A stretch of DNA of 64,000 bases from an uncultured Actinomycetes bacterium (lineage in GTDB: Bacteria; Actinomycetota; Coriobacteriia; Coriobacteriales; Atopobiaceae), in assembly GCA_900315165.1 (NCBI GenBank), contig OMXZ01000008.1:1-64000 (forward strand), given 5' to 3'. The notes under the pieces were generated by a model. The model worked only from the letters and a program-made list of their open reading frames with translations, searched no databases and was not told where the DNA came from. The position numbers and the translations under genes are program-made. The first letter of the stretch is position 1. Every line of letters begins with the position of its first letter. Positions 25,394 to 40,587 of the stretch are shown here, one piece after another.

Positions 25394-25410
25394 GGCCCGC
25401 GATCGCGCAG

Positions 25411-25474
25411 ATTACGCCGTCGGAGGGGCAGGTTGCGTCAAAACGCGCCGCACGGCACCGCATCGTCGTACCTT
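25411..25474 (+). promoter_or_regulatory. Candidate LytTR site and promoter of GH3 gene 1
   Basis: ATTACGCC (25411-25418) and GCGTCAAAA (25435-25443) place their CGYC cores exactly 21 bp apart (25415 and 25436). A -10-like TACCTT follows 33 bp after the second core (25469). The same arrangement precedes the two other GH3 genes of the window. Confidence 0.6.
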
Positions 25475-25506
25475 CAGCATGACAAGAGACATGCGAAGGA
25501 GACGAC

Positions 25507-27957
25507 ATGGCGTACGAGAGCCTGATCAAGCAGATGACCCTGGAGGAGAAATGTGCGCTCCTCTCCGGCGCGGAGCCTTTCAAGACGCGCGGGATGAAGA
25601 AGTACGGCATCCCGCAGATGCAGTTCTCGGACGGCCCCCATGGCTTGCGCCTGCAGGGCGAGGGCGCCAACCACCTGGGCATCGGCGTCAGCCTGCCGGC
25701 TACCTGCTTCCCCTCGGCGGCCACTGTCGCCAACAGCTGGGATCCTGCGGTCGCCGAGGCCATGGGACGGGCGCTGGGCGAGGAGGCGCTGGCCGAGAAG
25801 GTCGACGTGGTCCTGGGCCCGGGCCTCTGCATCAAGCGCAGCCCACTGTGCGGTCGCAACTTCGAGTACTTCTCCGAGGACCCCTACCTTGCAGGCAAGA
25901 TGGCGGCGGGCATGGTCCGTGGCATCGAGTCGACGGGCGTCTCGTCCTGCCCCAAGCATTTTGCGGCCAACCAGCAGGAGACCCGTCGACAGGCGTCGGA
26001 CTCCGTGCTGGATGAGCGCACGCTGCGCGAGATCTACCTGACGGGCTTCGAGCATGTGGTGCGCGAGGGCAAACCTGGCTGCATCATGAGCAGCTACAAC
26101 CGCGTGAACGGGACCTACGCCAACGAGAACCGCCATCTCTTGCAGGAAATCCTGCGTGACGAGTGGGGTTATACGGGGGCGGTCGTGACCGACTGGGGCG
26201 GTTCCAACGACCACGTGGCGGGCGTGCGCGAGGGGTCCACCTTCGAGATGCCCGACCCGGGGCTCTCGCCCGTGCGCGAGCTCATGGCGGCGGTGCGCGA
26301 CGGCCGCCTGGACGAGAAGGACGTGGACGCCCGCGTGGAGGAGGCCCTGACCCTGATCATGCGCACGACGGGGGCCACGCGGGCGTCCGCTGGCGAGTTC
26401 GATCGCGCGGCGCATCACGCCGCGGCACGTGAGGCCGCCGCGGCATCGATCGTCCTCCTCAAGAACGAGGAGACGGGCGGCGCGCCGATGCTGCCTCTGG
26501 CCGGCGGCACCCGTGTTGCCCTGATCGGCGATTTTGCGAATACGCCCCGCTATCAGGGCGCCGGATCATCGCTCGTGAACCCGACACAGCTGGATACCCT
26601 GTTGGGCTCGATCGAAGCCAGCGGCCTGGCCTGCGTGGGCTACGAGCCAGGCTTCGAGCGCCACGGCGGCGACAACGCGGGCAAGGCCGCGGCGGCGCTT
26701 GACCTGGCGAGGCAGGCTGACGTCGTCCTATTCTGCATGGGCCTGGACGAGCAGTCCGAGTCCGAGGGCGCCGACCGCACGACGATGGCCGTCAACCAGA
26801 ACCAGATCGACCTGCTCCATCAGGTTTCGCAGGTCAACGGCAGGGTCGTCGTGCTGCTGGTGGGCGGCAGCTCGATGGAGACGGGCTGGCTCGATGACGC
26901 GCGCGCCGTCCTTTACCTGTGTCTGGGAGGCCAGGCCGGCGCCAGCGCGGCGCTCGATGCCGTGACGGGCCGCGTCAACCCCTCGGGCAAGCTGGCCGAG
27001 ACCTGGGCACGCGGCCTCGCCGACACACCGACCGCCGGCAATTTCCCCGCCCAGGGCAAAAACGCCCTGTACCGCGAGGGCATCTATGTGGGCTACCGCT
27101 ACTACCAGACCGCCGGCGTGCCTGTGGCCTTCCCCTTCGGCTACGGCCTCTCCTATACGAGCTTCGCCTACAGCGGACTGGCAATCGACCATGTGAGCAA
27201 CGCGGGCGCAACCGTTCGCCTGACCGTGAAAAATACTGGTGACGTCGCCGGTGCCGAGGTCGTGCAGGTCTATGTGGCCAAACCCGAGCACGAGGTCTTC
27301 CGCCTCGCCCAGGAGCTCAAAGGCTTCGCCAAGGTCGAGCTGCTTCCGGGCGAGTCGCGCGAGGTTGTGATTGAGCTGGACGATACCGCCTTCCGCTACT
27401 TCAACGTGAGGACCGACGCCTGGGAGGTCGAGGGCGGCACGTACGAGATCCGTGTCGGCGCCTCCAGCGAGGATATCCGTTTGACGGCGACAGCCGAGGT
27501 CGCAGGCACCGACGCCCCCGACCCCTATGCTGGCCTCGATCTTGCACCCTACGAATACGGCCAGGTGGGCGAGGTCGACGATGAGACCTTCGAGGCGCTG
27601 CTGGGACACAAGTTGCCGAGCGAGCGTGCCACCATCGACCGCAACATGTGCTTCTGCGACTTCATCCACGGCCGCAGCCCGGTCCTCTGGCTGGTGTGGC
27701 TGGTGCTTTTCCTGATCAAGCGCGGCAGCGAACGCGCCGGCAGGCCCAACCTTAATGTCCTCTTCATCTGGAACATGCCGCTGCGCGCGCTGGCCAAGAA
27801 TGCGGGCGTGGTCTTCTCGGTGGCTGCGGTCGATGGTCTCGTGATGGAAGCCCGTGGCTTCTGGGTCATCGGCATCGTCCGCATGCTTGCGGGAATCATC
27901 GCCAACCTCGCACAGAATGCGAGCCAGTCCGCTCGCCTTGCCAAGCTCAACGCCTAG
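25507..27957 (+). CDS. GH3 beta-glycosidase, conventional domain order, with C-terminal hydrophobic tail
   Basis: An 816-residue GH3 enzyme. The TIM barrel comes first (substrate motif FSDGPHGLR near residue 40, KHFAANQQETRR, nucleophile Asp in VVTDWGGSND), then the alpha/beta sandwich from about residue 310 (SIVLLKNEE) and an FnIII-like domain (about 560-680). A final ~100 residues contain hydrophobic stretches (VLWLVWLVLFLI, VVFSVAAVDGLV), which are unusual for a GH3 and suggest membrane association. There is no signal peptide, so the catalytic part probably faces the cytoplasm. AAGGAG precedes the ATG. A GtrA-like gene follows after 15 bases. Confidence 0.9.
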   Translation: MAYESLIKQMTLEEKCALLSGAEPFKTRGMKKYGIPQMQFSDGPHGLRLQGEGANHLGIGVSLPATCFPSAATVANSWDPAVAEAMGRALGEEALAEKVDVVLGPGLCIKRSPLCGRNFEYFSEDPYLAGKMAAGMVRGIESTGVSSCPKHFAANQQETRRQASDSVLDERTLREIYLTGFEHVVREGKPGCIMSSYNRVNGTYANENRHLLQEILRDEWGYTGAVVTDWGGSNDHVAGVREGSTFEMPDPGLSPVRELMAAVRDGRLDEKDVDARVEEALTLIMRTTGATRASAGEFDRAAHHAAAREAAAASIVLLKNEETGGAPMLPLAGGTRVALIGDFANTPRYQGAGSSLVNPTQLDTLLGSIEASGLACVGYEPGFERHGGDNAGKAAAALDLARQADVVLFCMGLDEQSESEGADRTTMAVNQNQIDLLHQVSQVNGRVVVLLVGGSSMETGWLDDARAVLYLCLGGQAGASAALDAVTGRVNPSGKLAETWARGLADTPTAGNFPAQGKNALYREGIYVGYRYYQTAGVPVAFPFGYGLSYTSFAYSGLAIDHVSNAGATVRLTVKNTGDVAGAEVVQVYVAKPEHEVFRLAQELKGFAKVELLPGESREVVIELDDTAFRYFNVRTDAWEVEGGTYEIRVGASSEDIRLTATAEVAGTDAPDPYAGLDLAPYEYGQVGEVDDETFEALLGHKLPSERATIDRNMCFCDFIHGRSPVLWLVWLVLFLIKRGSERAGRPNLNVLFIWNMPLRALAKNAGVVFSVAAVDGLVMEARGFWVIGIVRMLAGIIANLAQNASQSARLAKLNA

Positions 27958-27972
27958 AAAGGGGCTATCGTC

Positions 27973-28473
27973 ATGGCCTTTAAGGATTTCACGGAAAAGC
28001 ACAAGACCCTCTGGGAGTTCATCAAGTTCAACCTGCTGTCCAACATCTCGACCATCACACGTATCGCCTTGGTCGCCGTCTTCTCCATCCTGCCCTTCCT
28101 GGCAAGCCGAACCGAGCCCTTCAACTTGTTCATCTGGCACTACCCGGCGAGCGCGGGCGGGGTCGGTGCCTTCTACGTCTTTCTGCTGGCCGAGATCCCG
28201 GCGCAGATCGTCAACTACATCGTGCAGATGAAGCTGACCTTCAAGTCGACCGTCTCGCATGCCTCTGCCGCACCGCGTTTCGCCCTGCTTGCCGTGATCA
28301 ACATCATCGTGAGCACGGTCCTGCCCGGCTACGTGAACGGCGCCCTCGCCGGCTTCGGCATAGGCGGCATGCTGGCCAACCTGCTCTCGACCCTGTTTAA
28401 CCTGGTCGCCCAGGTCATCATCTGCTTCTATCCCATGAAGTATTGGGTCTTCTCTGGCAGCAACGAGAAATAG
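27973..28473 (+). CDS. GtrA-like polytopic membrane protein
   Basis: A 166-residue protein with about four hydrophobic helices, an N-terminal EFIKFNLLSNISTITR and a C-terminal FYPMKYWVFSG, resembling GtrA-family proteins that assist transfer of polyprenyl-linked sugars across the membrane. It sits 15 bases after the GH3 gene on the same strand, with AAAGGGG ahead of its ATG, so the two form an operon. This hints at a cell-surface glycan substrate (inference). Confidence 0.75.
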   Translation: MAFKDFTEKHKTLWEFIKFNLLSNISTITRIALVAVFSILPFLASRTEPFNLFIWHYPASAGGVGAFYVFLLAEIPAQIVNYIVQMKLTFKSTVSHASAAPRFALLAVINIIVSTVLPGYVNGALAGFGIGGMLANLLSTLFNLVAQVIICFYPMKYWVFSGSNEK

Positions 28474-28495
28474 AACAAATATTTCCAAAATGAGC

Positions 28496-28524
28496 TTGTA
28501 AGACCGAAACACCCGTACTAATAT
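28496..28524 (+). promoter_or_regulatory. Candidate promoter of Uma2 gene 1
   Basis: TTGTAA (28496-28501) and TAATAT (28519-28524) are separated by 17 bp within an AT-rich stretch that is unlike the surrounding DNA. Confidence 0.6.
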
Positions 28525-28571
28525 ATAGGCGAAAGAAACACACGTGCTGTATTAGGGATGGGGTGCATGGT

Positions 28572-29153
28572 ATGATGCAATCAACGGCGGAAGCTTTATG
28601 GGATGGAACGGCTATGGACGGTGAGCAGGGCACTTATACGGCAGAGGACTATTGGGCTCTGCCTGAAGGGCAGCGTGCGGAGCTGATAAAGGGGAAGCTG
28701 TACGACCTGGCCGCTCCCAGCCGAGAGCACCAGAGGCTGGTCCTTCAAATCGGTCGACTCATGAGCGACTATATCGAAGCCAATGGTCTGCCCTGCGAGG
28801 CGGACGTCGCGCCGTTCGCCGTGAACCTGCGAGCCGACGACTCGACCTTCGTTGAGCCCGACGTGCTGGTCGTGTGCGACAAGGACAAGCTCTCCGAGCG
28901 CGGCTGCGAGGGCGCACCGGACCTGATTGTCGAGGTGGTGAGTCCTTCGAGCCGCCACATGGACTATGCGACGAAGAACGCCCTCTATAGCGATGCGGGC
29001 GTGCGCGAGTACTGGATCGTCGATCCCGAGCGTCAGCGCACTACGATTTACCGATACGAGGAAGACGCGGCGCCCATGATCCTCCCCTTCAGCATGCCGG
29101 TAGCATCGGGCATCTGCCCCGACTTCAGCCTTGTGCTGGCGGAGCTTCTGTAA
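28572..29153 (+). CDS. Uma2-family (DUF820) putative endonuclease, copy 1
   Basis: A 193-residue protein with the PD-(D/E)XK-like Uma2/DUF820 fold: LPEGQRAELIKGKLYDL at the start, VEPDVLVVCD with catalytic acidic residues, APDLIVEVVSPSSR, and AGVREYWIVDPE. Family members are widespread in cyanobacteria and Coriobacteria; their biological role is poorly known. The start is uncertain (GTG 28563 or ATG 28572 or 28575). A paralogue lies at 40006, so the pair brackets the two kinase/LytTR/GH3 units. Confidence 0.85.
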   Translation: MMQSTAEALWDGTAMDGEQGTYTAEDYWALPEGQRAELIKGKLYDLAAPSREHQRLVLQIGRLMSDYIEANGLPCEADVAPFAVNLRADDSTFVEPDVLVVCDKDKLSERGCEGAPDLIVEVVSPSSRHMDYATKNALYSDAGVREYWIVDPERQRTTIYRYEEDAAPMILPFSMPVASGICPDFSLVLAELL

Positions 29154-29167
29154 GGGTGAGAAAAAGG

Positions 29168-30523
29168 TTATAGCGACAAGAGGATGCGAGCCTGGCCTGG
29201 GCCGATGGTTAGCGTGCCGCCCAGGCGTGTCGCGACGGAGCGCGCTTGATCGAGCATCGTGGAGGACGGTACGGTATTGCCGGGTATGTTGGCGGCAAGC
29301 AAGTACAGCGCGCCCTGACGTCGGCTGGAGAGCAGTACGGTCGAGTCGTCGCTCTCCGCTGCCGCATCGACCGAGGAGTCCACGAGGCAGCCGACGAGCG
29401 CGTACAGGTCGGCGGGGGAGACGGCGGCAAGGGCGGACCCGTCCACCATGCATTCGAGGGAGACACCGCGCTGGCGTGCGAGCAAAGCCTTCTCGGTAAG
29501 GATGACGTCGAGCGCCTCGTTGCCAGTCTTTGCGCGCATGTCGTATACATCGATCTCGCGGGCGACCCGCGCAAGCTGGGACCGGTCGATGCGCACGGAG
29601 CCGTCGGCGCCCGTCCCACCCTCGCTCAGCTGCCGCAGCACAAGATGGCGAAGGTCGTGGCAGCGTCGGTCGATGGCGGCCACCGTCTCGCGCGCCAGCT
29701 CATACTGCCTCGCACCCGCATCGAGGAGGGCCTCGGCCGCGGCTTTCTCGTCGGCGATGCGCTGGGCATAGAGCAGGCGGTACTCTACCCAGAGCAGAAA
29801 ACCGCACATGAGGCCGTGCATCAGGCGGTAAGAGAGCTGGAGGCCGAAGGAGGCGTCCGTCACCGTCAGCAGTTTATTGGCAATATCGAACGAGATGACC
29901 AGGGTGCCCACGAGTGTCATCAGCACGAGCTGCCACACGCTGCCGCGACTCCCGAGGTCCTCGTGCTCGATTCTGCGGATGAAGACGAGGTAGCAGATGA
30001 GGTATACGCCGGCAAAGGTCGCAAGGGACAGGAGGAAGGATGGCGCGCTGACGGTCGACTGAGGGCCCGCCATCAGGTTCACTGGTGCTTTCTGCGCCTG
30101 CACAAAGAGCGCTTCGCTATCGAAAAGGTCGCCCGCGCCGTTCTGCCCCAGCGTGAAGCGCCAGAAATTCACCGTGCTGCTCGCGATGTTCTGCATGGTA
30201 TAGCCCGTCACGGCAGCGGCGCAGGCCGACCAGCGATCGATGCCGTGGCACCACCAGGCTCCCAATGCCATGACGCAAAGGGTTCCCAGGGACGAGGCGA
30301 GCGTCAGGAAGGACAGCTCGCACGGTCCGAGAAGGATGTTGCCATGGAACGCGGCGCAGGCGCCGAAGGTGAGGACAGGCACGAAATCGAGCGCGAGGAA
30401 GAACCCCAGGAGCCGAAGGGGGTAGGCGCGCCTGCGAGGGAGCGTGTGTACAAAGAGCAGCACGGCGACGAGGGTCTCCAAGGTTCCCACCTGGGTGACG
30501 AGCAGGTTGACGAGGGCCTTCAT
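29168..30523 (-). CDS. GHKL-type sensor kinase, unit 1, degenerate ATP site
   Basis: A 451-residue AgrC-like sensor. The N-terminal ~230 residues hold 6-7 membrane helices, including the motif GYTMQNIAS. A dimerisation/phosphoacceptor helix with CHDLRHL follows, then a GHKL-like region with GNEALDVILTEK. The usual N box Asn is not seen (LVGCLVDSSVDA replaces the LLDNAIEA type), and no glycine-rich G boxes follow, so normal ATP binding is doubtful. It overlaps the response regulator gene by 4 bases (ATGA). The paralogue at 34553 shares the same topology, GYTMQN motif and losses. Confidence 0.8.
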   Translation of the reverse strand: MKALVNLLVTQVGTLETLVAVLLFVHTLPRRRAYPLRLLGFFLALDFVPVLTFGACAAFHGNILLGPCELSFLTLASSLGTLCVMALGAWWCHGIDRWSACAAAVTGYTMQNIASSTVNFWRFTLGQNGAGDLFDSEALFVQAQKAPVNLMAGPQSTVSAPSFLLSLATFAGVYLICYLVFIRRIEHEDLGSRGSVWQLVLMTLVGTLVISFDIANKLLTVTDASFGLQLSYRLMHGLMCGFLLWVEYRLLYAQRIADEKAAAEALLDAGARQYELARETVAAIDRRCHDLRHLVLRQLSEGGTGADGSVRIDRSQLARVAREIDVYDMRAKTGNEALDVILTEKALLARQRGVSLECMVDGSALAAVSPADLYALVGCLVDSSVDAAAESDDSTVLLSSRRQGALYLLAANIPGNTVPSSTMLDQARSVATRLGGTLTIGPGQARILLSL

Positions 30524-31254
30524 GCGCCAGCTCCCATACGGGATGCAAGGGCGTCAAGCAAAGGGCCCCGTCGTGAGCGGGAGAGGGGAAAGGCGCGCCC
30601 GTCGTCCATGTGCACGTCGGCTGCGCCGACGGACGTCACGTGGTCGAGGTTGGCGAGGCAGGCGGGCGAGGTGCGGAAGAAGGCCCCCGTCCCGGCAAGC
30701 CGGCTCTCTGCTTCGGCAATAGTGCCGCGCACGCGGGGATCCTCGCCACCCGTCGACGCACCGGGCGCCAGACGGTAATACAGGTCGTGGCGGGTGGTCT
30801 CGACACAGACGATATCATCGGCATCGAGCGTCCAGGTGCGTTCGCGCGTGCTGATCGTAATCGTCTTCCTTCGCCGCAATTCCACCTCGTGCAGAATGCG
30901 CGGCATGCGGCGCGAGAGCACTCCGTACTCGACGGGCTTGATGATGAAGTCGGTCGCGTCGACTTCGTAACCACGCGCCGCATGGCGGGCAAGGCTCGTC
31001 ACAAAGACGAGTGTCGTTTGGCGGTCGAGCTCGCGCAGGTGCCGGGCGGCGGAAAAGCCGTCGACCCCGGGCATCTCGATATCCATGAAGATGAGATCGG
31101 CGGGATGGCGCTCGGGCTCGAAGTCGAAAGCAGATGCCACGCAGCGTATGTCAAGCGATACGCTGCCCTCGGCGGAATACCGTCGCAGGCAGGATGAGAG
31201 GCAGTCTGCGTCGGCGTCGTCATCCTCGATGACCAGCACCTTGAGTTCGTCCAT
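30520..31254 (-). CDS. LytTR-family response regulator, unit 1
   Basis: A 244-residue regulator with a receiver domain (acidic pocket VIEDDDAD, phospho-Asp in LIFMDIEMPG, Lys in IIKPVEYG) and a C-terminal LytTR DNA-binding domain (FFRTSPACLANLDHV, then FPLSRSRR). GGAAGG precedes the ATG. It is divergent from the GH3 gene 2; the ~100-base gap holds a 21-bp-spaced direct repeat of the type LytTR proteins bind. It probably activates GH3 gene 2 and perhaps gene 1. Confidence 0.92.
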   Translation of the reverse strand: MDELKVLVIEDDDADADCLSSCLRRYSAEGSVSLDIRCVASAFDFEPERHPADLIFMDIEMPGVDGFSAARHLRELDRQTTLVFVTSLARHAARGYEVDATDFIIKPVEYGVLSRRMPRILHEVELRRRKTITISTRERTWTLDADDIVCVETTRHDLYYRLAPGASTGGEDPRVRGTIAEAESRLAGTGAFFRTSPACLANLDHVTSVGAADVHMDDGRAFPLSRSRRGPLLDALASRMGAGA

Positions 31255-31265
31255 GGCACCTTCCG

Positions 31266-31329
31266 ATTACGCCAAAATCCGTTGCACGGGCGTCAAAAGA
31301 ACGCCGTGGGGCGCGCGCCTCCCTATCGT
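31266..31329 (+). promoter_or_regulatory. Candidate LytTR site and promoter of GH3 gene 2
   Basis: ATTACGCC (31266-31273) and GCGTCAAAA (31290-31298) have CGYC cores at 31270 and 31291, exactly 21 bp apart, and match the site at 25411 almost base for base. TATCGT (31324) lies 33 bp after the second core. Confidence 0.65.
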
Positions 31330-31374
31330 TTCCGATGATAGCAAGGAGAAGGTCTGTTGGCGAAAGGAGAAGGA

Positions 31375-34300
31375 GTGGCACATAATGAGAAAGGCGCGCG
31401 CTTGCGGATGCGACCGGGCAAGTTCCTGGCGCTCACGGTGGTGCCGATGGCGTTGGTGCTGGTTGTTGCTCTGCTGCTTACGGCTGCGGGTACGGTGTTT
31501 GCGCCGACGCTCGGCGCTCTTTTTGGCGAGGGTGCGCAGACGGTGCAGAACCCGGACGGCGTCGAGGAGGATGCCGCCGACTACTACGAGGAGAAGTACG
31601 GGAGCGCCGAGGAGGCCAAGGAGGCTGCTTACAAGACGGCAGCCCGCATCCTGCAAGAGGGCACCGTCCTGCTCAAGAACGACGGTGCGCTGCCGCTTGC
31701 CCAGGGGTCCGAAGTGACGCCGTACGGCTACGGCGCCCTGCATCCCGTCTACGGGCAGATGTCCCAGGGCGGCTCGACCAAGTGGGACGACGACCCGGTC
31801 ACGCCCGAGGAAGGGCTTTCGTCGGTCTACGAGGTCAACCGCTCGGCGCTCGAAGCCATGGAGGCGGCAGGCGACCCCGAGGTGCTTGCCGAGGCCGAGG
31901 GCGCGACGCCCGCGGGTGATACGGCAAGCCTGCTTGGCGGGGATAGCTTCATCTTCGAGTACGATCCTTCCATCTACGACGGCATCGATGCCGGCGGTAC
32001 GGGCGTGGTCTTCATCACGCGCACCGGCCAGGAGGGGCAGGACAAGAAGTTCGACGCCTATTCGGACGGTACTCCTCACTATCTGGCGCTTTCCGAAAAC
32101 GAAAAAGAGACCATCAGGGCGGCCAAGGAGCAGTGCGACAAGGTGGTCGTAGTCTTGGTTGCCTCGCAGACCATGGAGGTCGCTCCGCTGATGGACGGCG
32201 AGTACGAGGCCGATGCCATCGTGTGGATGGGCAATCCGGGCGAGCTGGGTTTCTCCGAGCTGGGGCATATCATGGACGGCGAGGTCAACCCCTCCGGCCG
32301 TACCGTGGACATCTGGGCGACCGACTTCACGGCCGACCCCAGCTATGCCAACATCGGCGACTTCCGCTACGACAACGCCGACTTCACGATGCCCGGCTTC
32401 ATGAGCGGCATGGAGAGCTCGATCGCCCGTCCCTACCTGGAGTATCAGGAGGGCGTCTATATGGGCTACCGCTATTACGAGACGGCCGATGTCGAGGACG
32501 ACGCCTTCACTTATGGCACGCTTGACGGCCAGGGCGGTATCGCCGAGGCTGGTGCGGTGACCTACCCCTTTGGCTACGGCCTGTCCTACACATCCTTCAC
32601 GCAGCAGATTAGCTCGTACGATGATTCGGGCGAAACTATCACGATGGACGTGACGGTAACCAACACGGGCGACGTCGCCGGCAAGGACGTTGTGCAGGTC
32701 TACTACGAGAGCCCCTACACGGACTACGACCGCGACCACAAGGTCGAGAAGCCCGTCTGCGTCCTCGCGGACTTCGCCAAGACGGGTCTGCTCGAACCGG
32801 GCGAGTCGCAGGCCGTGACCCTGTCCTTCGACAGGCAGGACATGGCCTCCTATGACTATACCCACGACAACGGCAACGGGACGACGGGCTGCTACCTGCT
32901 CGAGGCGGGCGACTACCAGGTGACCCTGCGCGCCAACAGCCACGATGTGATCGACACGCGTACGACGACCATCGCCGAGACGACCTTCTTCGACGGGTCC
33001 GATGCCGACCACATTCGTACCTCGGACAAGGAGGGCCAGTCCGAGCTCGACCCCGAGACCGGCGAGGCGGCGATCGACCCGTCTGCCGACTATGTCGCCG
33101 CCACCAACAAGTTCCAGGCGAGCTCCGACTACATGAACGAGGAGTCGACCATTCTTACCCGCTCCGACTGGAAGGGCACGCAGCCCGTCCGCGACGAGGA
33201 CCGTACCAAGTCGCTCGCCCAGCGCTATGCCGAGATGGCGGTGCTCGAGACCGAGTTCGACGTCGAGAACGATCGCACCTACGGCAATGTCGAGGGCAGC
33301 GTTGCCTATCACGCCGACCCGCCCGCCTCAGGCGAGGACAACGGCCTGACGCTGGCAAGCATGCGCGGCCTGTCCTACGACGACCCGCAATGGGAGAAGT
33401 TCCTCAACCAGATCGACTGGTCGGACCGCACCGCAATCGAGCAGAACTTCGCCGGTGATGCCTATCGTCTGGGCGGCATTGACAGCCTGGGCATGCCCCA
33501 GACCAAGGTCGAGGACGGCGGCAACGGCCTCAAGGTCGAGAGCATCTCGCAGTCCCAGTACGACATGGGCAAGTCCGCCTCCTATCCCTTCCACCCCACG
33601 GTGGCCTCCACTTGGAATGTCGACCTTCTCTATGAGATGGGTGCTGCCCTCGGCCAGGAGGCACTGGCAAACGGCATCAACGGCTGGTACAGCCCTGGCA
33701 TCAACCTGCACCGCTCGCCCTTCTCGGGTCGCGTCTTCGAGTACTACTCCGAGGACCCGCTGCTGTCGGGCAAGCTTGCCGCAGCCATCACCAGCGGCGC
33801 GGGCGACAACGGCCTCTTTGTGACCCTCAAGCACTTTGCGCTGAACGAGATGGAGACGAACCGCTCCAACTACTCGATGAACTGGGCCGACGAACAGACC
33901 ATGCGCGAGCTCTACCTGCGCCCCTTCGAGATCGCAGTCAAGGACGCGCGCATGACGGAGACCTATCTCGATGAGGATGGCACGCGTCAGACTAAGGTTA
34001 TGCGCGCCACGACGGGCATCATGCCCAACCAGGGCGGCGTGGGCCCCGTGGTCGGCACGGTCAACGCGGACCTGCTCCAGGGCGTGCTGCGCGGCGAGTG
34101 GGGCTTCCGCGGGCTGTGCTTCACCGACTACTGGGTGACCAGCAATAACTCCTTCCGCGACCTGGCCCTGCGCACTGGTTCCGACGCCTACCTCTCGATG
34201 TACCTGCCGATGTTCTGGAAGATGGTCGACTACGAGAGCCCCAGCGCCCAGTGGGCCATGCGCAACGCCATCCACAACATCGCCTATACGATGGCCAACT

Positions 34301-34491
34301 CCAATGCCGTGCAGGGTGCGGCGCCGGGAGCTACGTACAGGACGGCTGTCCCCGGCTGGCGTATCGGCCTGACCGTGGCAAACATTGTCGTCGCGGGTCT
34401 ATGGGTGTTGTGGCTCATCCGCGTGATCATGCGCTTCCGTGCGTGCAAGGCGCATCCGGAGACCTTCAAGCCGCGTCGTCGCGACAAGTAG
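31375..34491 (+). CDS. Membrane-tethered GH3 glycosidase with reversed domain order, gene 2
   Basis: A 1038-residue GH3 protein. After a basic N-terminus and one membrane helix (about residues 18-45) comes the alpha/beta sandwich (ILQEGTVLLKNDGALPL), then an FnIII-like part (VTNTGDVAGKDVVQVYY), then the TIM barrel (EYYSEDP, KHFALNE, nucleophile Asp in LCFTDYWV). A second membrane helix and a basic tail close the protein. Reversed order is known from Ruminococcus and Butyrivibrio beta-glucosidases. The loop usually reading MSSYN(R/A)VNG is TGIMPNQGGVGP, so specificity may be unusual. GTG 31375 (AAAGGAG, 5 bases away) and TTG 31357 (AAGGAG, 8 bases away) are both plausible starts. Confidence 0.88.
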   Translation: MAHNEKGARLRMRPGKFLALTVVPMALVLVVALLLTAAGTVFAPTLGALFGEGAQTVQNPDGVEEDAADYYEEKYGSAEEAKEAAYKTAARILQEGTVLLKNDGALPLAQGSEVTPYGYGALHPVYGQMSQGGSTKWDDDPVTPEEGLSSVYEVNRSALEAMEAAGDPEVLAEAEGATPAGDTASLLGGDSFIFEYDPSIYDGIDAGGTGVVFITRTGQEGQDKKFDAYSDGTPHYLALSENEKETIRAAKEQCDKVVVVLVASQTMEVAPLMDGEYEADAIVWMGNPGELGFSELGHIMDGEVNPSGRTVDIWATDFTADPSYANIGDFRYDNADFTMPGFMSGMESSIARPYLEYQEGVYMGYRYYETADVEDDAFTYGTLDGQGGIAEAGAVTYPFGYGLSYTSFTQQISSYDDSGETITMDVTVTNTGDVAGKDVVQVYYESPYTDYDRDHKVEKPVCVLADFAKTGLLEPGESQAVTLSFDRQDMASYDYTHDNGNGTTGCYLLEAGDYQVTLRANSHDVIDTRTTTIAETTFFDGSDADHIRTSDKEGQSELDPETGEAAIDPSADYVAATNKFQASSDYMNEESTILTRSDWKGTQPVRDEDRTKSLAQRYAEMAVLETEFDVENDRTYGNVEGSVAYHADPPASGEDNGLTLASMRGLSYDDPQWEKFLNQIDWSDRTAIEQNFAGDAYRLGGIDSLGMPQTKVEDGGNGLKVESISQSQYDMGKSASYPFHPTVASTWNVDLLYEMGAALGQEALANGINGWYSPGINLHRSPFSGRVFEYYSEDPLLSGKLAAAITSGAGDNGLFVTLKHFALNEMETNRSNYSMNWADEQTMRELYLRPFEIAVKDARMTETYLDEDGTRQTKVMRATTGIMPNQGGVGPVVGTVNADLLQGVLRGEWGFRGLCFTDYWVTSNNSFRDLALRTGSDAYLSMYLPMFWKMVDYESPSAQWAMRNAIHNIAYTMANSNAVQGAAPGATYRTAVPGWRIGLTVANIVVAGLWVLWLIRVIMRFRACKAHPETFKPRRRDK

Positions 34492-34518
34492 GCTACGGAA
34501 AGACCGTAAACCGTAATA

Positions 34519-34553
34519 GGCCGGGGTGGGTGATGCCTGCCCCGGCCACTTTT
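34519..34553 (+). terminator. Terminator after GH3 gene 2
   Basis: A 12-bp stem with two wobble pairs (34519-34530 with 34536-34547) and loop TGATG is followed by five T residues (34550-34554). It overlaps the end of the convergent kinase gene. Confidence 0.88.
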
Positions 34554-35842
34554 TATGGGGTGAGGAGAGCGGTTATCGTGCAGACGCCATCGGCGACACG
34601 GGCCGAGAGCGTGCCTTCGTAGCGGTCGGCGATGGCGCGCATCGCCGTGAGGTCGGCAGGGGAGTACGGACTGGCGTCGGCATAGAATTCCAGGCGGAGC
34701 GCCGCCATGCCCGCCCGTTCGCGCAGGTCGAGGCGGATGCTCGTACGGGATTTGTCTGAGAGCGCCTCGACGCCGGAAATCGCGCCATCGAGCGCGCGGC
34801 CGAAGAGGGCGTGGATGTCCGCCGGCGCCATGTCGCCCAGCGCGGTACCGTCCGCGATGCAGGAGAGCGTGATTCTCTTTTGCGCGCAGATGAGGCCCTT
34901 CTCGGTGAGGATGACGTCAAGGGCGGCGTTGCCCGTCTTGGCTTGGGCATCGTAGATGTCGAGCTCGCGTGAGACCTCGCGCAAGAGCCTGCCGTCGCTG
35001 CCGACGGCGGAGCTGGCAAGCAGGCCGATGACCTGATGGCGCATCTGATGGCTGCGGGCGTTAATGGCCGAGACGGTCGCCTGTGAGAGCTGCCACTGGC
35101 GCGCCTGCTCGTCCATGAGCTGCCGCTGGGAGGCGAGCTCGCCTTGCAGGCGTTTGTTGTAGAGCAGCTCGAAGCTCGCGGCCAGGACGGACACGCAGAC
35201 GACGCCGTGCACGACGCGCAGGGAGGCGATGATGCCGAAAGGCACGGCGAACACCTCAAGCGCTTTGTTGATCACGTCGAAGCCGATGACCGCGTTGGCG
35301 ACGATGAAGAGGACGACCAGCATGCGCCGGTCCTGCACGAGGGCGAGGCCTCGATCGCTGAGGCGGCGGATCAATAGCAGATAGCAGGGGATGTAGACGA
35401 TGGCGGTAACGGCGGCGGCGAAGGCGAGCGTGTGGATGAGGGGGAGGAGCCCGGCGTTTAGGCCCGAGGCACACAGGGTGCAGAAGCCCGAAAGTCCGCT
35501 CGCGAGGTTCTGCATCGTATAGCCAGAGGCGCAGCAGTACAGGGCCGACCAGGGGGAACAGTCGTAGATAAAGAGCACGGCGGCCACGCAGAGCACGAGC
35601 ACAAGGCCGAAGGTGAAGAAGACGGTGGCAAGCTGACGGGAGCCCATCAGGTCGGGCTGCGCCACCGTGCCGTACCACGAGGCGGTCAGGGTGCTTGCGG
35701 CGGTGAGCGCAAGGACGACAATGCCGCGCAGGGTGCCGTGGGCACGGAGGGGAAGCCTCCGTGCGAAGAGCCACTGTGCGAGGACGATCTGCACCATCGT
35801 GACGGCCGCTTCGCCCAGGACCGACGTCATGCGGGGATCCAT
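34553..35842 (-). CDS. GHKL-type sensor kinase, unit 2, degenerate ATP site
   Basis: A 429-residue paralogue of the kinase at 29168. It has 6-7 membrane helices with GYTMQNLASG, a phosphoacceptor-like helix with SHQMRHQ, and GNAALDVILTEKG. The N box position reads ALFGRALDGAISG without Asn, and glycine-rich lid motifs are absent. It may rely on another kinase for phosphoryl groups or signal by binding alone (inference). Its ATG overlaps the stop of the response regulator gene by one base, giving tight coupling. Confidence 0.8.
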   Translation of the reverse strand: MDPRMTSVLGEAAVTMVQIVLAQWLFARRLPLRAHGTLRGIVVLALTAASTLTASWYGTVAQPDLMGSRQLATVFFTFGLVLVLCVAAVLFIYDCSPWSALYCCASGYTMQNLASGLSGFCTLCASGLNAGLLPLIHTLAFAAAVTAIVYIPCYLLLIRRLSDRGLALVQDRRMLVVLFIVANAVIGFDVINKALEVFAVPFGIIASLRVVHGVVCVSVLAASFELLYNKRLQGELASQRQLMDEQARQWQLSQATVSAINARSHQMRHQVIGLLASSAVGSDGRLLREVSRELDIYDAQAKTGNAALDVILTEKGLICAQKRITLSCIADGTALGDMAPADIHALFGRALDGAISGVEALSDKSRTSIRLDLRERAGMAALRLEFYADASPYSPADLTAMRAIADRYEGTLSARVADGVCTITALLTP

Positions 35843-36555
35843 CAGGCCCCGCCCAGGTAGTCGGCGATGCGTTCGAGGGCGGCGCGTTTCTTGCCGCGGG
35901 AGAAAAAGGCCGACGAGCCGTCGGACAGCTCGACCTCGTCGCCATGGATGCGGCGGATGTGGGCCATATTGACCAGGCAGCTCGCCGACACGTTGACGAA
36001 GGGGGTGCCGAGCTCCTCGAGCTGGCGGGCAATGGACGACAGCGTTGCGCGCTGGGTCAGGGCGCCGCCGCCAGCCAGGTGGTAGGTGGCATCGTGGCCG
36101 CGCACGTCGATAGAAACCAGGTCGGCGACGTTGACCACGCGGACGCCGTCGTGCGTCGGGACGGTGAGCGTCTGTCTCCGCGAACGCTGGAGGGCACGCA
36201 TAACACGATCCATGCAGAGGGTGAAGTCCCCATACGAGATCGGCTTGACGATGAAGCCGAGGGCGTCGACCGCATAGCCGTGCACGGCGTATTGCGCCAG
36301 GTTGGTCACGAAGACGAGGGGCGTCTCCTGATCGTACTCGCGCAGTGTCTCGGCGGCCTCCATGCCGGTGAAGCCGGGGAGGTCGATGTCCATAAAGACG
36401 AGGTCAGCGGGATGCGACCCCTCGAGAAACTCGACGGCGGACCGCAGGCGCCGAGTCTGGAATTGCCCGCCGTGCTCCTCGGCGTAGCGGGCGAGGCAGC
36501 CTTCGAGGGCGATGGCCTCGGCATCCGCATCCTCCACGATCAGGACCCGATACAT
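35842..36555 (-). CDS. LytTR-family response regulator, unit 2
   Basis: A 237-residue regulator with a receiver domain (VLIVEDADAE, phospho-Asp in LVFMDIDLPG, Lys in IVKPISYG) and a LytTR domain (FVNVSASCLVNMAHI, then FFSRGKKR). The ATG at 36555 is chosen for its GGAGG site and because it begins the receiver fold; the longer frame runs into the promoter region of the divergent GH3 gene. It is a clear paralogue of the regulator at 30520. Confidence 0.92.
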   Translation of the reverse strand: MYRVLIVEDADAEAIALEGCLARYAEEHGGQFQTRRLRSAVEFLEGSHPADLVFMDIDLPGFTGMEAAETLREYDQETPLVFVTNLAQYAVHGYAVDALGFIVKPISYGDFTLCMDRVMRALQRSRRQTLTVPTHDGVRVVNVADLVSIDVRGHDATYHLAGGGALTQRATLSSIARQLEELGTPFVNVSASCLVNMAHIRRIHGDEVELSDGSSAFFSRGKKRAALERIADYLGGA

Positions 36556-36585
36556 ACCGCCTCCTCGCGCCGTCGTCTGCAAACC

Positions 36586-36645
36586 ATGCCAACCTATCGA
36601 CCGATTATGCCACGGACGGGCGCGCTGCCGCCGTGTCGGTATCTT
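36586..36645 (+). promoter_or_regulatory. Candidate LytTR site and promoter of GH3 gene 3
   Basis: ATGCCAAC (36586-36593) and ATGCCACG (36607-36614) are direct repeats exactly 21 bp apart. TATCTT (36640) lies 32 bp after the second TGCC core. A further direct repeat, TCTTCGAC, occurs at 36642 and 36661 in the leader. Confidence 0.55.
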
Positions 36646-36680
36646 CGACTTGTGCAGTAGTCTTCGACAAAGGGGGAGAT

Positions 36681-39600
36681 ATGCCGTTTGGGGAGAGGAA
36701 AGGGAAGGCGCCAAAACCGCTGACCCTGCCGAGCCGCGGGCGCAAGGTCGCGCGCGGTATCAAGATGGTGGTTAAGGGCGTGCTCACGGTCGTCATGGCC
36801 GTGCTGCTTGTGGTGGACAACACGGTGGTGCCGAGCATGACTGCGGGCATGGTCGGCCGCATGGCCAATGACATGTTGGGCTATCAGCAGTCCTGGGACA
36901 ATACGAATACCAAGGTCGATCCGGACAAGGGGGCCTATTACACGTCGGACTTCACCGAGGACGAGATTGGCGATGCCCAACATGCGCTCGACCGTCGGAT
37001 TGCCGACGAGGGCTATGTCCTGCTCAAGAACGACAATCACACGATGCCCTTTGCGGAAGGCACGACCTTCTCCTTCTTCGGTGAGTCCAGCAAACATCTT
37101 GGCGAGTCCCAGAGCCTGGTCACGCAGTTTATCGGGGCGTCCGGCAGCTATGACAAGCTGAACGAGGCCTTCGAGAACGAGGGCTTCTCGGTGAACACCG
37201 AACTTGAGGACTTCTACCTCTCCGACGACGCAAGCCAGTACGACTTGGGCAAGGGATCCATCAGCTTTGGCCAGGACGAGGACTTCGCCATCAACGAATG
37301 CCCCCTCAGCGTGCTCAAGGGGCGCAATGGCCTGCTCGACTCCGCCGAGGGCACCGTGCCCGTCTTTGCGCTCAAGCGCGTCGCCGGCGAGGGTCGCGAC
37401 ATGCCGCGCTCGATGTACAACCATACGGACAACGCGGACGACCAGCAGCTTAGCTACTTCACGCTCGACTCCGACGAGCGCGAGATCCTCTCGTACCTCA
37501 ACGACAACTTCGACCAGGTCGTCGTGGTCGTCAACACCGCCTCGGCGCTGGAGTTCGATTGGCTTGCCGACTATCCCAACGTCAAGGCCATTGTGTACAT
37601 GCCGTCTGCCGGCACCTATGGCATCGAGTCGCTCGCGGGCATCTTCTCGGGCAGCGTGAACCCGAGCGGACGTACCGTCGACACCTTCGCGGCGGACGCC
37701 TCCACCAGCCCCGCGGCCCAGAACTATGGCGACTACGCCTACCTCGAGGCCGACGGCAAACTGAGCGGCTACAACTACGTGACCTATGAGGAGGGCATCT
37801 ACGTCGGGTACCGCTATTACGAGACCCGCTACGAGGACGCCGTCCTGGGCCAAGGCAACGCCGGCGCCTATGACTACGCAGACGAGGTCGTGTATCCCTT
37901 CGGCTACGGCCTTTCCTACACCGATTTCGCCTGGAGTGACTTCACGAACGCACAGGACGGCACGACCGTCACGACCACGGTCACGGTGACCAATACGGGC
38001 GACGTGGCGGGCAGGGACGTCGTGGAGCTCTATGTGCAGAGTCCCTATACCGACTACGACAAGGCCAACGGTGTCGAGAAGGCCGCAGTCGAGCTCGTCC
38101 AGTATGCCAAGACGGACCTGCTCGACCCGGGTGAGAGCCAGACGCTGACCCTGAGTTTCGATGTCGACCAACTCAAGGCGTATGACGCGCAGACCGCCAA
38201 GACCTACATTCTCGACGGCGGCACTTACTATGTGACGGCGGCGACGGATGCTCATGCCGCGACCAACAACATCCTCGCAGCCAAGGGATCCGATGCGAGC
38301 GTACAGGCTTCCGGTGTCTCCGCAGGCAGCGAGACTGGCGATGCGGCGCTCGTCGCGCCTGTCGAGATTGCGGGCGATGTCGATACGACGACCTATGCGA
38401 CCGACTCCTATACGGGCACGGCCGTGACCAACCAGTTCGACGCGGCCAAGGGCGATGCGACCTACCTCACACGCTCCGACTGGGAGGGCACTTTCCCGAA
38501 GCATGACGGCGAGCCGATCGAGGGTGAGGTCTCGACCTGGGGCAACGAGATCAACGGGACCGACGGGGACGGCAATCCCGCCTCGCTGGTGTACGGCAAG
38601 ACGGCGAGCGACGAGCTCCTCGCCCAGCTCGACTCCTTCGAGTCCAACAACCCCGTCTCTGACGACGAGATCACGGATGAGCCGGTCTATGGACAGGACA
38701 ACGGCCTGACCCTGATCGACCTGCGTGGCCTCGACTTCGACGACCCGCAATGGGACGCCCTGCTCAATCAGCTGACCCCCGAGGACTACGAGGAGATCCT
38801 CGGTCACTCCGGCTACGGCATCGAGTACCTGGAGTCCGTGGGCAAGCCTTTCAACATCGACGCCGACACGGCGGCGGGCCTCATCTACGGAGGCGGTGGC
38901 TCCGCAATCGGCGGCGACTCCATGATGTTCTGCTCGCCGATCACGGTGGCGCAGACCTACAACCAGGACATTGCGACCGATTACGGCCATATGATTGGCA
39001 GCGAGGGCGTGCTCGGCGGCGCCTCCGGCTGGTATGCCCCCTCGATGAACATCCATCGCACCCCCTACTCCGGCCGCAACAACGAGTACTACTCCGAGGA
39101 CCCGTTCGTGTCTGGCACGGTTGCGTCGCTCGAGATCAAGGGTGCCGCCGACAAGGGCATGTATGCCTATATCAAGCACTTCGCCCTGAACGACCAGGAG
39201 AACCACCGCGGTGACAACAGCATTGGCACCCGCGGGGGCGGCCTCGTGACCTGGGCCAACGAGCAGTCCATCCGCGAGATGTACCTTCTGCCCTTCGAGA
39301 TGTGCATGAAGGTCGGCGACGTGGAGGAGACCTACGTCGACGCCGACGGCGACACCCAGACGCGCGAGCAGCGCGCCGCGCAGGGCATCATGAGCTCCTT
39401 CAACCGCATTGGCGCCACCTGGGCGGGCGGCGACTACGCACTGCTCACCGGCATCGCCCGCGACGAGTGGGGCTTCGATGGCATGGTCATCACCGACTCC
39501 GCCAACGGCGCCACGGACCTGATGAACGTGAGCCAGATGATCCGTGCGGGTGGCGATACCCGCCTGCTGTCCAACCCCAGCGATTACACGTTCGACGAGA

Positions 39601-39860
39601 CCGACGTGGCGGAGTACCACTATGCCCGCAAGGCGCTGCACCATGTCCTCTACATCACGGCCAACTCCCGCGCCATGCAGGGCGCCGTGCCCGGCAGCGT
39701 CTACAAGCCTGGCCTGCAGGCCATGGACCGCGCGCGTATCGCGGTCAACGTGATCGCCATCGTGTCGCTTGCCCTGCTCGCTGGTACCGGCTGGCGCAAC
39801 CACAAGCGCAACCAGCGCGAGCGTGAACTGGCCGCCTCGCTGACGGGCACGCAGAAGTAG
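36681..39860 (+). CDS. Membrane-tethered GH3 glycosidase with reversed domain order, gene 3
   Basis: A 1059-residue paralogue of GH3 gene 2. A basic N-terminus and membrane helix (VVKGVLTVVMAVLLVVDN) are followed by the alpha/beta sandwich (GYVLLKNDNHTMPF), an FnIII-like region, and the TIM barrel (EYYSEDPF, KHFALNDQENH, IMSSFNRIGATWA, nucleophile Asp in MVITDSANGA). A second helix (VNVIAIVSLALLAGTG) and a basic tail end it. Both termini should be cytoplasmic, with the enzyme outside. ATG 36681 has an AGGGGGAG site very close to it; the open frame extends to GTG 36633 without a ribosome site. The motifs are more canonical than in gene 2. Confidence 0.9.
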   Translation: MPFGERKGKAPKPLTLPSRGRKVARGIKMVVKGVLTVVMAVLLVVDNTVVPSMTAGMVGRMANDMLGYQQSWDNTNTKVDPDKGAYYTSDFTEDEIGDAQHALDRRIADEGYVLLKNDNHTMPFAEGTTFSFFGESSKHLGESQSLVTQFIGASGSYDKLNEAFENEGFSVNTELEDFYLSDDASQYDLGKGSISFGQDEDFAINECPLSVLKGRNGLLDSAEGTVPVFALKRVAGEGRDMPRSMYNHTDNADDQQLSYFTLDSDEREILSYLNDNFDQVVVVVNTASALEFDWLADYPNVKAIVYMPSAGTYGIESLAGIFSGSVNPSGRTVDTFAADASTSPAAQNYGDYAYLEADGKLSGYNYVTYEEGIYVGYRYYETRYEDAVLGQGNAGAYDYADEVVYPFGYGLSYTDFAWSDFTNAQDGTTVTTTVTVTNTGDVAGRDVVELYVQSPYTDYDKANGVEKAAVELVQYAKTDLLDPGESQTLTLSFDVDQLKAYDAQTAKTYILDGGTYYVTAATDAHAATNNILAAKGSDASVQASGVSAGSETGDAALVAPVEIAGDVDTTTYATDSYTGTAVTNQFDAAKGDATYLTRSDWEGTFPKHDGEPIEGEVSTWGNEINGTDGDGNPASLVYGKTASDELLAQLDSFESNNPVSDDEITDEPVYGQDNGLTLIDLRGLDFDDPQWDALLNQLTPEDYEEILGHSGYGIEYLESVGKPFNIDADTAAGLIYGGGGSAIGGDSMMFCSPITVAQTYNQDIATDYGHMIGSEGVLGGASGWYAPSMNIHRTPYSGRNNEYYSEDPFVSGTVASLEIKGAADKGMYAYIKHFALNDQENHRGDNSIGTRGGGLVTWANEQSIREMYLLPFEMCMKVGDVEETYVDADGDTQTREQRAAQGIMSSFNRIGATWAGGDYALLTGIARDEWGFDGMVITDSANGATDLMNVSQMIRAGGDTRLLSNPSDYTFDETDVAEYHYARKALHHVLYITANSRAMQGAVPGSVYKPGLQAMDRARIAVNVIAIVSLALLAGTGWRNHKRNQRERELAASLTGTQK

Positions 39861-39919: not shown

Positions 39920-39936
39920 ATTACGAACAAATGTTA

Positions 39937-39966
39937 TTGACAAATAAATACATGTGTACTTACTTA
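39937..39966 (+). promoter_or_regulatory. Candidate promoter of Uma2 gene 2
   Basis: A perfect -35 hexamer TTGACA (39937-39942) lies 18 bp before TACTTA (39961-39966) in an AT-rich island. Confidence 0.5.
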
Positions 39967-40005
39967 GAAATAGAAGAAACAACTGTACCGTATTGGAGGC
40001 GTGCT

Positions 40006-40587
40006 ATGATTCGGGCAAATACTGCAGTCGATTTCACGGAGGAAGCCATGGGCGCGGGGACTGTTCGCCATACGGTGGATGAGATTTACGCGCTTCCCGA
40101 GGGGCAGCGCGCCGAGCTCATTGACGGCGTCATCTATGACATGGCCTCGCCGAAGCGCATCCACCAAGAGCTCGTAATGTATCTCTCTGTAGAAATCAGC
40201 CTCTACATCCGGTCTCATAAGGGCTCTTGCAAGGTCTATCCCGCGCCTTTTGCCGTGCTCCTTTTCAACGATCGCTACAACTACGTGGAGCCCGACGTCT
40301 CGGTGATCTGCGACCCGTCCAAGCTCGATGACCGTGGCTGCAACGGTGCGCCCGACTGGGTCATCGAGATCGTCTCAGAGTCCAGCCGTACGATGGATAA
40401 CCTCATCAAGCTCGAAGAGTATCGCAAGGCGGGCGTTCGCGAATATTGGATCGTGGACCCCTCAAAACACACGGTCAGGGTGTATGGGTTCGACCCGCTC
40501 GCCTACGGGGAATACGCCTTCGGTCAGCCGGTGCCCTCAAACACCCTCGAGGGGCTCGAACTCGACTTTGCGGACTTCGCTGGCTAG
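40006..40587 (+). CDS. Uma2-family (DUF820) putative endonuclease, copy 2
   Basis: A 193-residue Uma2-fold protein, clearly paralogous to the one at 28572: LPEGQRAELIDGVIYDM, YVEPDVSVICDPSKL, APDWVIEIVSESSR and AGVREYWIVDPS are shared in the same order. The acidic residues of the PD-(D/E)XK-like core are kept. ATG 40006 has a GGAGG site 6 bases ahead. It is the last gene of the GH3/LytTR region and convergent with the peptidase at 40602. Confidence 0.87.
   Translation: MIRANTAVDFTEEAMGAGTVRHTVDEIYALPEGQRAELIDGVIYDMASPKRIHQELVMYLSVEISLYIRSHKGSCKVYPAPFAVLLFNDRYNYVEPDVSVICDPSKLDDRGCNGAPDWVIEIVSESSRTMDNLIKLEEYRKAGVREYWIVDPSKHTVRVYGFDPLAYGEYAFGQPVPSNTLEGLELDFADFAG

Follow-up and report, generated by a model that had tools for sequence, protein, structure and literature searches.

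Predicted LytTR-activated direct-repeat promoters upstream of GH3 glycosidase genes in an Atopobiaceae genome and its relatives

Most of what is known about LytTR regulators concerns quorum sensing, competence and toxins. We analyzed a stretch of 64,000 nucleotides (positions 1 to 64,000 of contig OMXZ01000008.1; hereafter the window) from an uncultured bacterium of the family Atopobiaceae, in which three genes for GH3 glycosidases (GH3a, GH3b, and GH3c) are found with the genes for two LytTR response regulators (RR1 and RR2). Upstream of each GH3 gene are two ~12-bp direct repeats with a 21-bp period, followed by a TAnnnT hexamer 27–28 bp past the second repeat. Their layout and conservation suggest that these three sites are very probably activator-dependent promoters of a LytTR-type response regulator, and the regulon they define is a new one of a known promoter kind. 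The repeats, their spacing, the offset of the −10 box, their orientation, their conservation and their link to GH3 genes were all established by computation. The features concerned are as follows.

25408..25419, + strand: site 1, upstream half-site CAGATTACGCCG (sequence read and family matrix)
25429..25440, + strand: site 1, downstream half-site CAGGTTGCGTCA, offset by 21 bp (sequence read and family matrix)
25469..25474, + strand: site 1, −10-like TACCTT, 28 bp past the half-site (conserved in the sister genome G004)
25507..27957, + strand: GH3a, canonical GH3 beta-glucosidase-like, without an adjoining regulator
29168..30523, − strand: HK1, GHKL-type sensor, ATP-binding boxes lost
30520..31254, − strand: RR1, receiver plus LytTR response regulator
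31263..31274, + strand: site 2, upstream half-site CCGATTACGCCA (sequence read, conservation in G004)
31284..31295, + strand: site 2, downstream half-site GCACGGGCGTCA, weak apart from GCGTCA
31324..31329, + strand: site 2, −10-like TATCGT, 28 bp past the half-site
31375..34491, + strand: GH3b, permuted GH3 (C-Fn3-N); likely start GTG 31375, open reading frame opens at 31357
34553..35842, − strand: HK2, GHKL-type sensor, ATP-binding boxes lost
35842..36558, − strand: RR2, receiver plus LytTR response regulator
36580..36591, + strand: site 3, upstream half-site CAAACCATGCCA, weak
36601..36612, + strand: site 3, downstream half-site CCGATTATGCCA, strong
36640..36645, + strand: site 3, −10-like TATCTT, 27 bp past the half-site
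36681..39860, + strand: GH3c, permuted GH3; likely start ATG 36681, open reading frame opens at 36633, before the −10 box

The three sites in the window

The cores of the repeats are CGCC at 25415 and CGTC at 25436 in site 1, CGCC at 31270 and CGTC at 31291 in site 2, and TGCC at 36587 and at 36608 in site 3. These positions, their 21-bp spacing and the TAnnnT hexamers at 25469, 31324, and 36640 had been proposed in an earlier reading of this DNA (the original prediction) and were all correct when read on the sequence. The repeats themselves are real, but GATTn(T/C)GyCA describes their core better than the YGYC assigned to them.

Sites 1 and 2 have ATTACGCC-N16-GCGTCAAAA in common. In the 2.3-Mb genome, TTACGCC-N16-GCGTCAAAA had exactly two perfect matches, which are sites 1 and 2; the next best match (n = 1) had 2 mismatches, and the background at 3 mismatches was about that of the reversed control (13 matches in all vs. 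12 in the reversed control). When scanned with a matrix trained without the window genome and without G004, the window yielded sites 3 and 1 as its top two 21-bp pairs (scores of 26.7 and 20.8, respectively), and these were the only 21-bp pairs with a correctly placed −10 box; 30 simulated windows peaked at 9.8. An alternative arrangement of site 3, in which the strong ATTATGCC served as the upstream arm 24 bp from a weak match, was dropped; the 21-bp pairing scores best and has the right distance to the −10 box.

At locus L078 of G004, which represents a sister species of the same genus, both arms of site 2 are letter-for-letter identical to those in the window, and several of the 16 spacer bases differ. 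The GH3a promoter of G004 retains TTACGCC, TTGCGTCAAA and GTACCTTCA, and its flank upstream of the first arm is no longer alignable. G004 lacks GH3c, yet the strong arm of site 3 is kept.

Conservation across the Atopobiaceae

The original prediction pointed to Collinsella-type genomes for comparison; the host family is, however, Atopobiaceae and not that of Collinsella, and conservation was assessed in ~140 Atopobiaceae genomes (order Coriobacteriales). Of the 140 genomes, 56 contain relatives of RR1, with up to 11 per genome, and most of the loci retrieved have a GH3 gene divergent from a regulator-sensor pair. From ~80 related LytTR regulator genes, 70 non-redundant upstream regions, two window regions included, were used for de novo motif searches. 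A first search with a mixture model was swamped by purine-rich ribosome-binding sites. The working search, which used a second-order Markov background and at most one site per sequence, returned the half-site motif aCCGATTnTGyCA, although the repeats noted in the window had not been supplied to it, and a wider motif consisted of two copies of this word at a distance of 21 bp.

Within these regulator-upstream regions, 26 half-site pairs were found at 21 bp and 13 at 22 bp, compared to 0–5 at each other spacing and 0–3 in the reverse-strand and reversed-matrix controls. TAnnnT occurred 27–29 bp past the second half-site in 25 of the 26 promoters with 21-bp spacing and 28–29 bp past it in 8 of 12 with 22-bp spacing (≤0.26 expected per position in both cases), and no conserved −35 box was found among these promoters. 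The upstream regions of regulators without a divergent GH3 gene were mostly without the pair. The repeats, their 21-bp period, their orientation and their distance to TAnnnT are all conserved across the family; a lack of conserved repeats or spacing at orthologous promoters, which the original prediction had named as evidence against itself, did not occur in the ~140 genomes.

A GH3 gene without an adjacent regulator

That the GH3 gene at 25507 belongs to the regulon despite having no adjacent regulator had been a guess, which its orthologs now support. A GH3a-type gene is present in 84 of the 140 genomes, and the upstream regions of 78 true GH3a orthologs were scored with a pair threshold of 14 bits. 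The pair was found in 55 of the 78, mostly without a regulator next door. These sites are located 60–111 bp before the start codon, have nearly always a 21-bp spacing and, in 52 of 56 cases (that of the sister genome counted), are followed by TAnnnT at 28 bp (chance <0.5 per position). The presence of the site follows that of the RR1-type regulator family, as 46 of the 53 genomes with the family but only 9 of the 25 without it bear a GH3a site (p = 1e-5, kinship ignored). Thus, a trans-acting regulon that includes the GH3 gene at 25507 is supported. Given that the genomes with a GH3a site but without the RR1-type family still hold LytTR regulators, all of the more general kind, another LytTR protein may bind there. 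Good GH3a sites in genomes with no RR1-type regulator at E ≤ 1e-20 are those of L182, L183, L193, L195, and L200.

Further targets

The window genome was also scanned with a sequence-only profile built from 33 promoters, with sites 1 and 2 in the training set and site 3 left out. Among the scored candidates, three hits had E < 1e-3 and all of them preceded GH3 genes: GH3a, GH3c, which was outside the training set, and a previously unseen site on contig C21 (9823–9889; L277). The latter, a 21-bp site, immediately precedes a fourth GH3 gene with permuted domains, and its contig is without a LytTR gene. The regulon of three GH3 genes proposed originally is supported in its members but incomplete, the fourth GH3 gene on another contig having gone unseen. 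In other genomes, additional permuted GH3 genes are marked by the profile, and G004 has a weak match on a contig with a similar GH3 stretch (C28:35846).

In lineage g33, nitroreductase-like genes are found downstream of the same promoter architecture (L279, L280, L282, L283, and L295), an assignment confirmed by Pfam for L282 and L283. These nitroreductase-family targets hint at a regulon reaching beyond glycosidases.

Relatives of the regulators adjoining GH3 genes also exist in Clostridia. At L305 and L306, a convincing 21-bp pair precedes TATAAT-like boxes upstream of GH3 genes, and at L314 (outside the family) a 21-bp pair precedes a TATAAT-like box upstream of the regulator. No convincing site was found at the Clostridia loci L299–L302, L307, and L308. 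Because a site is present only at L305, L306, and L314, the cross-phylum extension is provisional; their sites possibly reflect transfer or deep ancestry across phyla.

Proposed mechanism and alternatives

In the mechanism proposed here, a regulator dimer would bind the two direct half-sites, with the consensus ACCGATTnTGyCA, which at a spacing of 21 (sometimes 22) bp would lie on one helix face. With a transcription start 7 bp past the −10 box, the pair would be centered near −57, and the bound dimer would recruit RNA polymerase to the −10 box ~28 bp downstream; the lack of a conserved −35 box fits activator dependence. In most cassettes, the regulator would share with its membrane sensor an operon that diverges from the GH3 gene, and the site would be directed at the GH3 gene only. 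Unlinked GH3 genes, i.e., GH3a and the permuted GH3 gene on the other contig, would be controlled in trans by the same regulators. The predicted outcome is the co-ordinated induction of membrane-anchored and canonical beta-glycosidases. Protein binding, activation over repression, the pairing of regulators with sites and the inducing signal are what we infer here. The earlier reading of the repeat geometry as that of LytTR activators is well founded, as both period and position fit published sites (PMC6193735, PMC4227749, PMC2838878). Given that sites 1 and 2 share specific bases, RR1 would most likely serve sites 1 and 2 and RR2 would serve site 3. The one regulon of the original notion may in fact be two overlapping regulons, since the bases shared by sites 1 and 2 are absent from site 3.

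Several observations weigh against this mechanism. The downstream arm of site 2 (GCACGGGCGTCA) matches in its last six bases only and the matrix misses the site, as does the profile, though trained on it, because of the poor second arm; site 2 is accepted because of its identity with site 1 and because both of its arms are perfectly conserved in G004 while the spacer changed. The profile scan scored 150 of 1842 first-look candidates. For a matching of regulators to sites, the family gave a weak signal, as GH3a sites and regulator-adjacent sites agreed at 15.1 of 24 positions within the same genome and at the only slightly lower 14.5 between genomes (p = 0.026, kinship-confounded). Finally, the 9 of 25 GH3a orthologs mentioned above bear the site in genomes scored as lacking the RR1-type family.

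These nine promoters, in genomes where general LytTR proteins are present, speak for a binder other than the RR1/RR2-type proteins, such as a global regulator, a sugar-responsive factor or a general LytTR regulator encoded at an unlinked locus. Such a binder is improbable, given that the site is strongly linked to adjacent RR1-type genes and, genome-wide, to their presence, and that its half-site, period and position match those of LytTR sites. It is just as improbable that the bound regulator represses the GH3 genes instead of activating them. Some LytTR proteins do repress when bound elsewhere, as AgrA does downstream of the bsaA promoter (PMC4227749), but the fixed place upstream of the expected −35 position and the lack of a conserved −35 box are the layout of an activator.

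Slightly less probable still is that the sites serve autoregulation of the divergent regulator-sensor operon and that the GH3 genes are mere neighbors. The upstream half-site is 8–22 bp from the start codons of RR1 and RR2, so that a bound regulator should affect the regulator operon, and repeats of this kind mediate autoregulation of LytTR Regulatory System operons (PMC6193735). However, both the repeats and the −10 box face the GH3 genes: half-site hits numbered 112 vs. 44 on the other strand, and 39 pairs at 21–22 bp were directed toward GH3 vs. 3 on the other strand. Moreover, GH3a and the GH3 gene on contig C21 bear the site without an adjoining regulator, and regulators without a divergent GH3 gene are mostly without it. 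Chance resemblance in GC-rich intergenic DNA, for which the short and degenerate single arms and the poor second arm of site 2 could be cited, is hardly credible, as simulated windows never came near these scores and dozens of genomes retain both the spacing and the −10 offset. Chance is already refuted for sites 1 and 3; at site 2, it is opposed by the identity to site 1 and by the conservation in G004.

Sensors and phosphorelay

HK1 and HK2 each span the membrane several times and contain a GHKL-like histidine region. Most of their relatives have an intact N box (GNALDNA) and G box (HGFGMRSM), whereas both boxes are lost in HK1, HK2 and both G004 orthologs; the Pfam GHKL model HATPase_c_5 gave 16 bits or no match for these proteins vs. 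60–69 bits for intact relatives. This kinase-dead appearance of both partner sensors had not been seen in the original prediction. The LytTR genes linked to them, RR1 and RR2, were confirmed by Pfam, and the regulators have a complete receiver domain with invariant D58 (the phospho-acceptor), T86, and K106. The receiver has the Asp, Thr and Lys expected of a two-component system; a partner histidine kinase with intact N and G boxes is missing. Among 77 sensors, 18 are degenerate, which corresponds to 7 changes on a quick tree and at least 4 by well-supported branches, a rough count given several long branches. Degenerate sensors are found beside well-conserved sites at L093, L110, L118, L126, L129, and L130 and in the window.

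Because HK1 and HK2 lost their ATP-binding boxes, plain autophosphorylation by the partner is unlikely in the window genome, which leaves sequestration, phosphatase action or cross-talk with another kinase as options for signal transfer. We tentatively suggest, as a possibility rather than a probability, that sensors without ATP binding may gate an intact LytTR regulator by direct binding, phosphatase action or cross-talk, and that signaling by the system's own kinase may have been abandoned for glycoside sensing by a LytTR regulator plus membrane switch.

The glycosidases and neighboring genes

GH3a has the domain order N, C, Fn3-like, and its nearest relatives among solved structures are beta-glucosidases. 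In GH3b and GH3c, the domains are permuted (C, Fn3, N) with a hydrophobic segment at each end, and both proteins (open reading frames 31357–34491 and 36633–39860) are apparently membrane-anchored twice. NCBIfam names no exact substrate for these GH3 proteins. A gene of the Uma2 family (putative endonuclease; 39931–40587) directly follows GH3c; G004 (L078, 9654–12432) has no GH3c and carries a second Uma2-like copy in tandem.

Comparison with known LytTR systems

Published LytTR sites consist of 9-bp ACC..TT-like repeats 12 bp apart (in a minority 11 or 13), located 8–10 bp upstream of the −35 box, and have a repeat period of 21 bp (in a minority 20 or 22; PMC6193735), while AgrA sites are centered near −60 (PMC4227749). 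Like LytTR activator promoters, i.e., P2/P3 of Staphylococcus AgrA, those of Streptococcus mutans HdrR/BrsR and the VirR boxes of Clostridium perfringens, the sites described here have two direct half-sites ~21 bp apart at a fixed place just upstream of the core promoter. They share the 21-bp period and the ACC..TT-like half-site with HdrR/BrsR sites; the AgrA pair near −60 compares with a pair predicted near −57 for sites of the window type, and the VirR box pair, which spans 34 nt upstream of the −35 box, has a like layout. The 27–28 bp between repeat and −10 box equal the published 8–10 bp plus the −35 box plus ~17 bp. In contrast to the known promoters, the half-site is extended by TGyCA, there is no recognizable −35 box, and the targets are GH3 glycosidases and not quorum, competence, bacteriocin or toxin genes.

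LytTR Regulatory Systems, in which a regulator is paired with a membrane inhibitor without a kinase (PMC6193735), resemble the window genome in having a membrane partner without an intact kinase and a direct-repeat promoter. Their regulators are, however, non-phospho-response regulators, whereas those described here keep a complete and intact receiver domain, and the partner here is clearly derived from a GHKL kinase that most relatives have kept intact. The likeness to AgrC/AgrA lies in a sensor whose polytopic membrane part precedes a GHKL-type region and in a regulator made of receiver and LytTR domains; unlike in AgrC/AgrA, the gene order is regulator-sensor, divergent from GH3, and the window sensors are without N and G boxes.

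Among the open papers searched, we found none linking LytTR regulators to GH3 glycosidases. In Atopobiaceae, the large family-wide regulon connects the two, and a less clear connection is seen in Clostridia. The regulon also provides a predictive site model (ACCGATTnTGyCA at a 21-bp period, 28 bp, TAnnnT) by which unlinked glycosidase genes can be assigned to it, and the sensors without kinase motifs in an otherwise conserved circuit are a natural test of function without phosphorylation by the partner.

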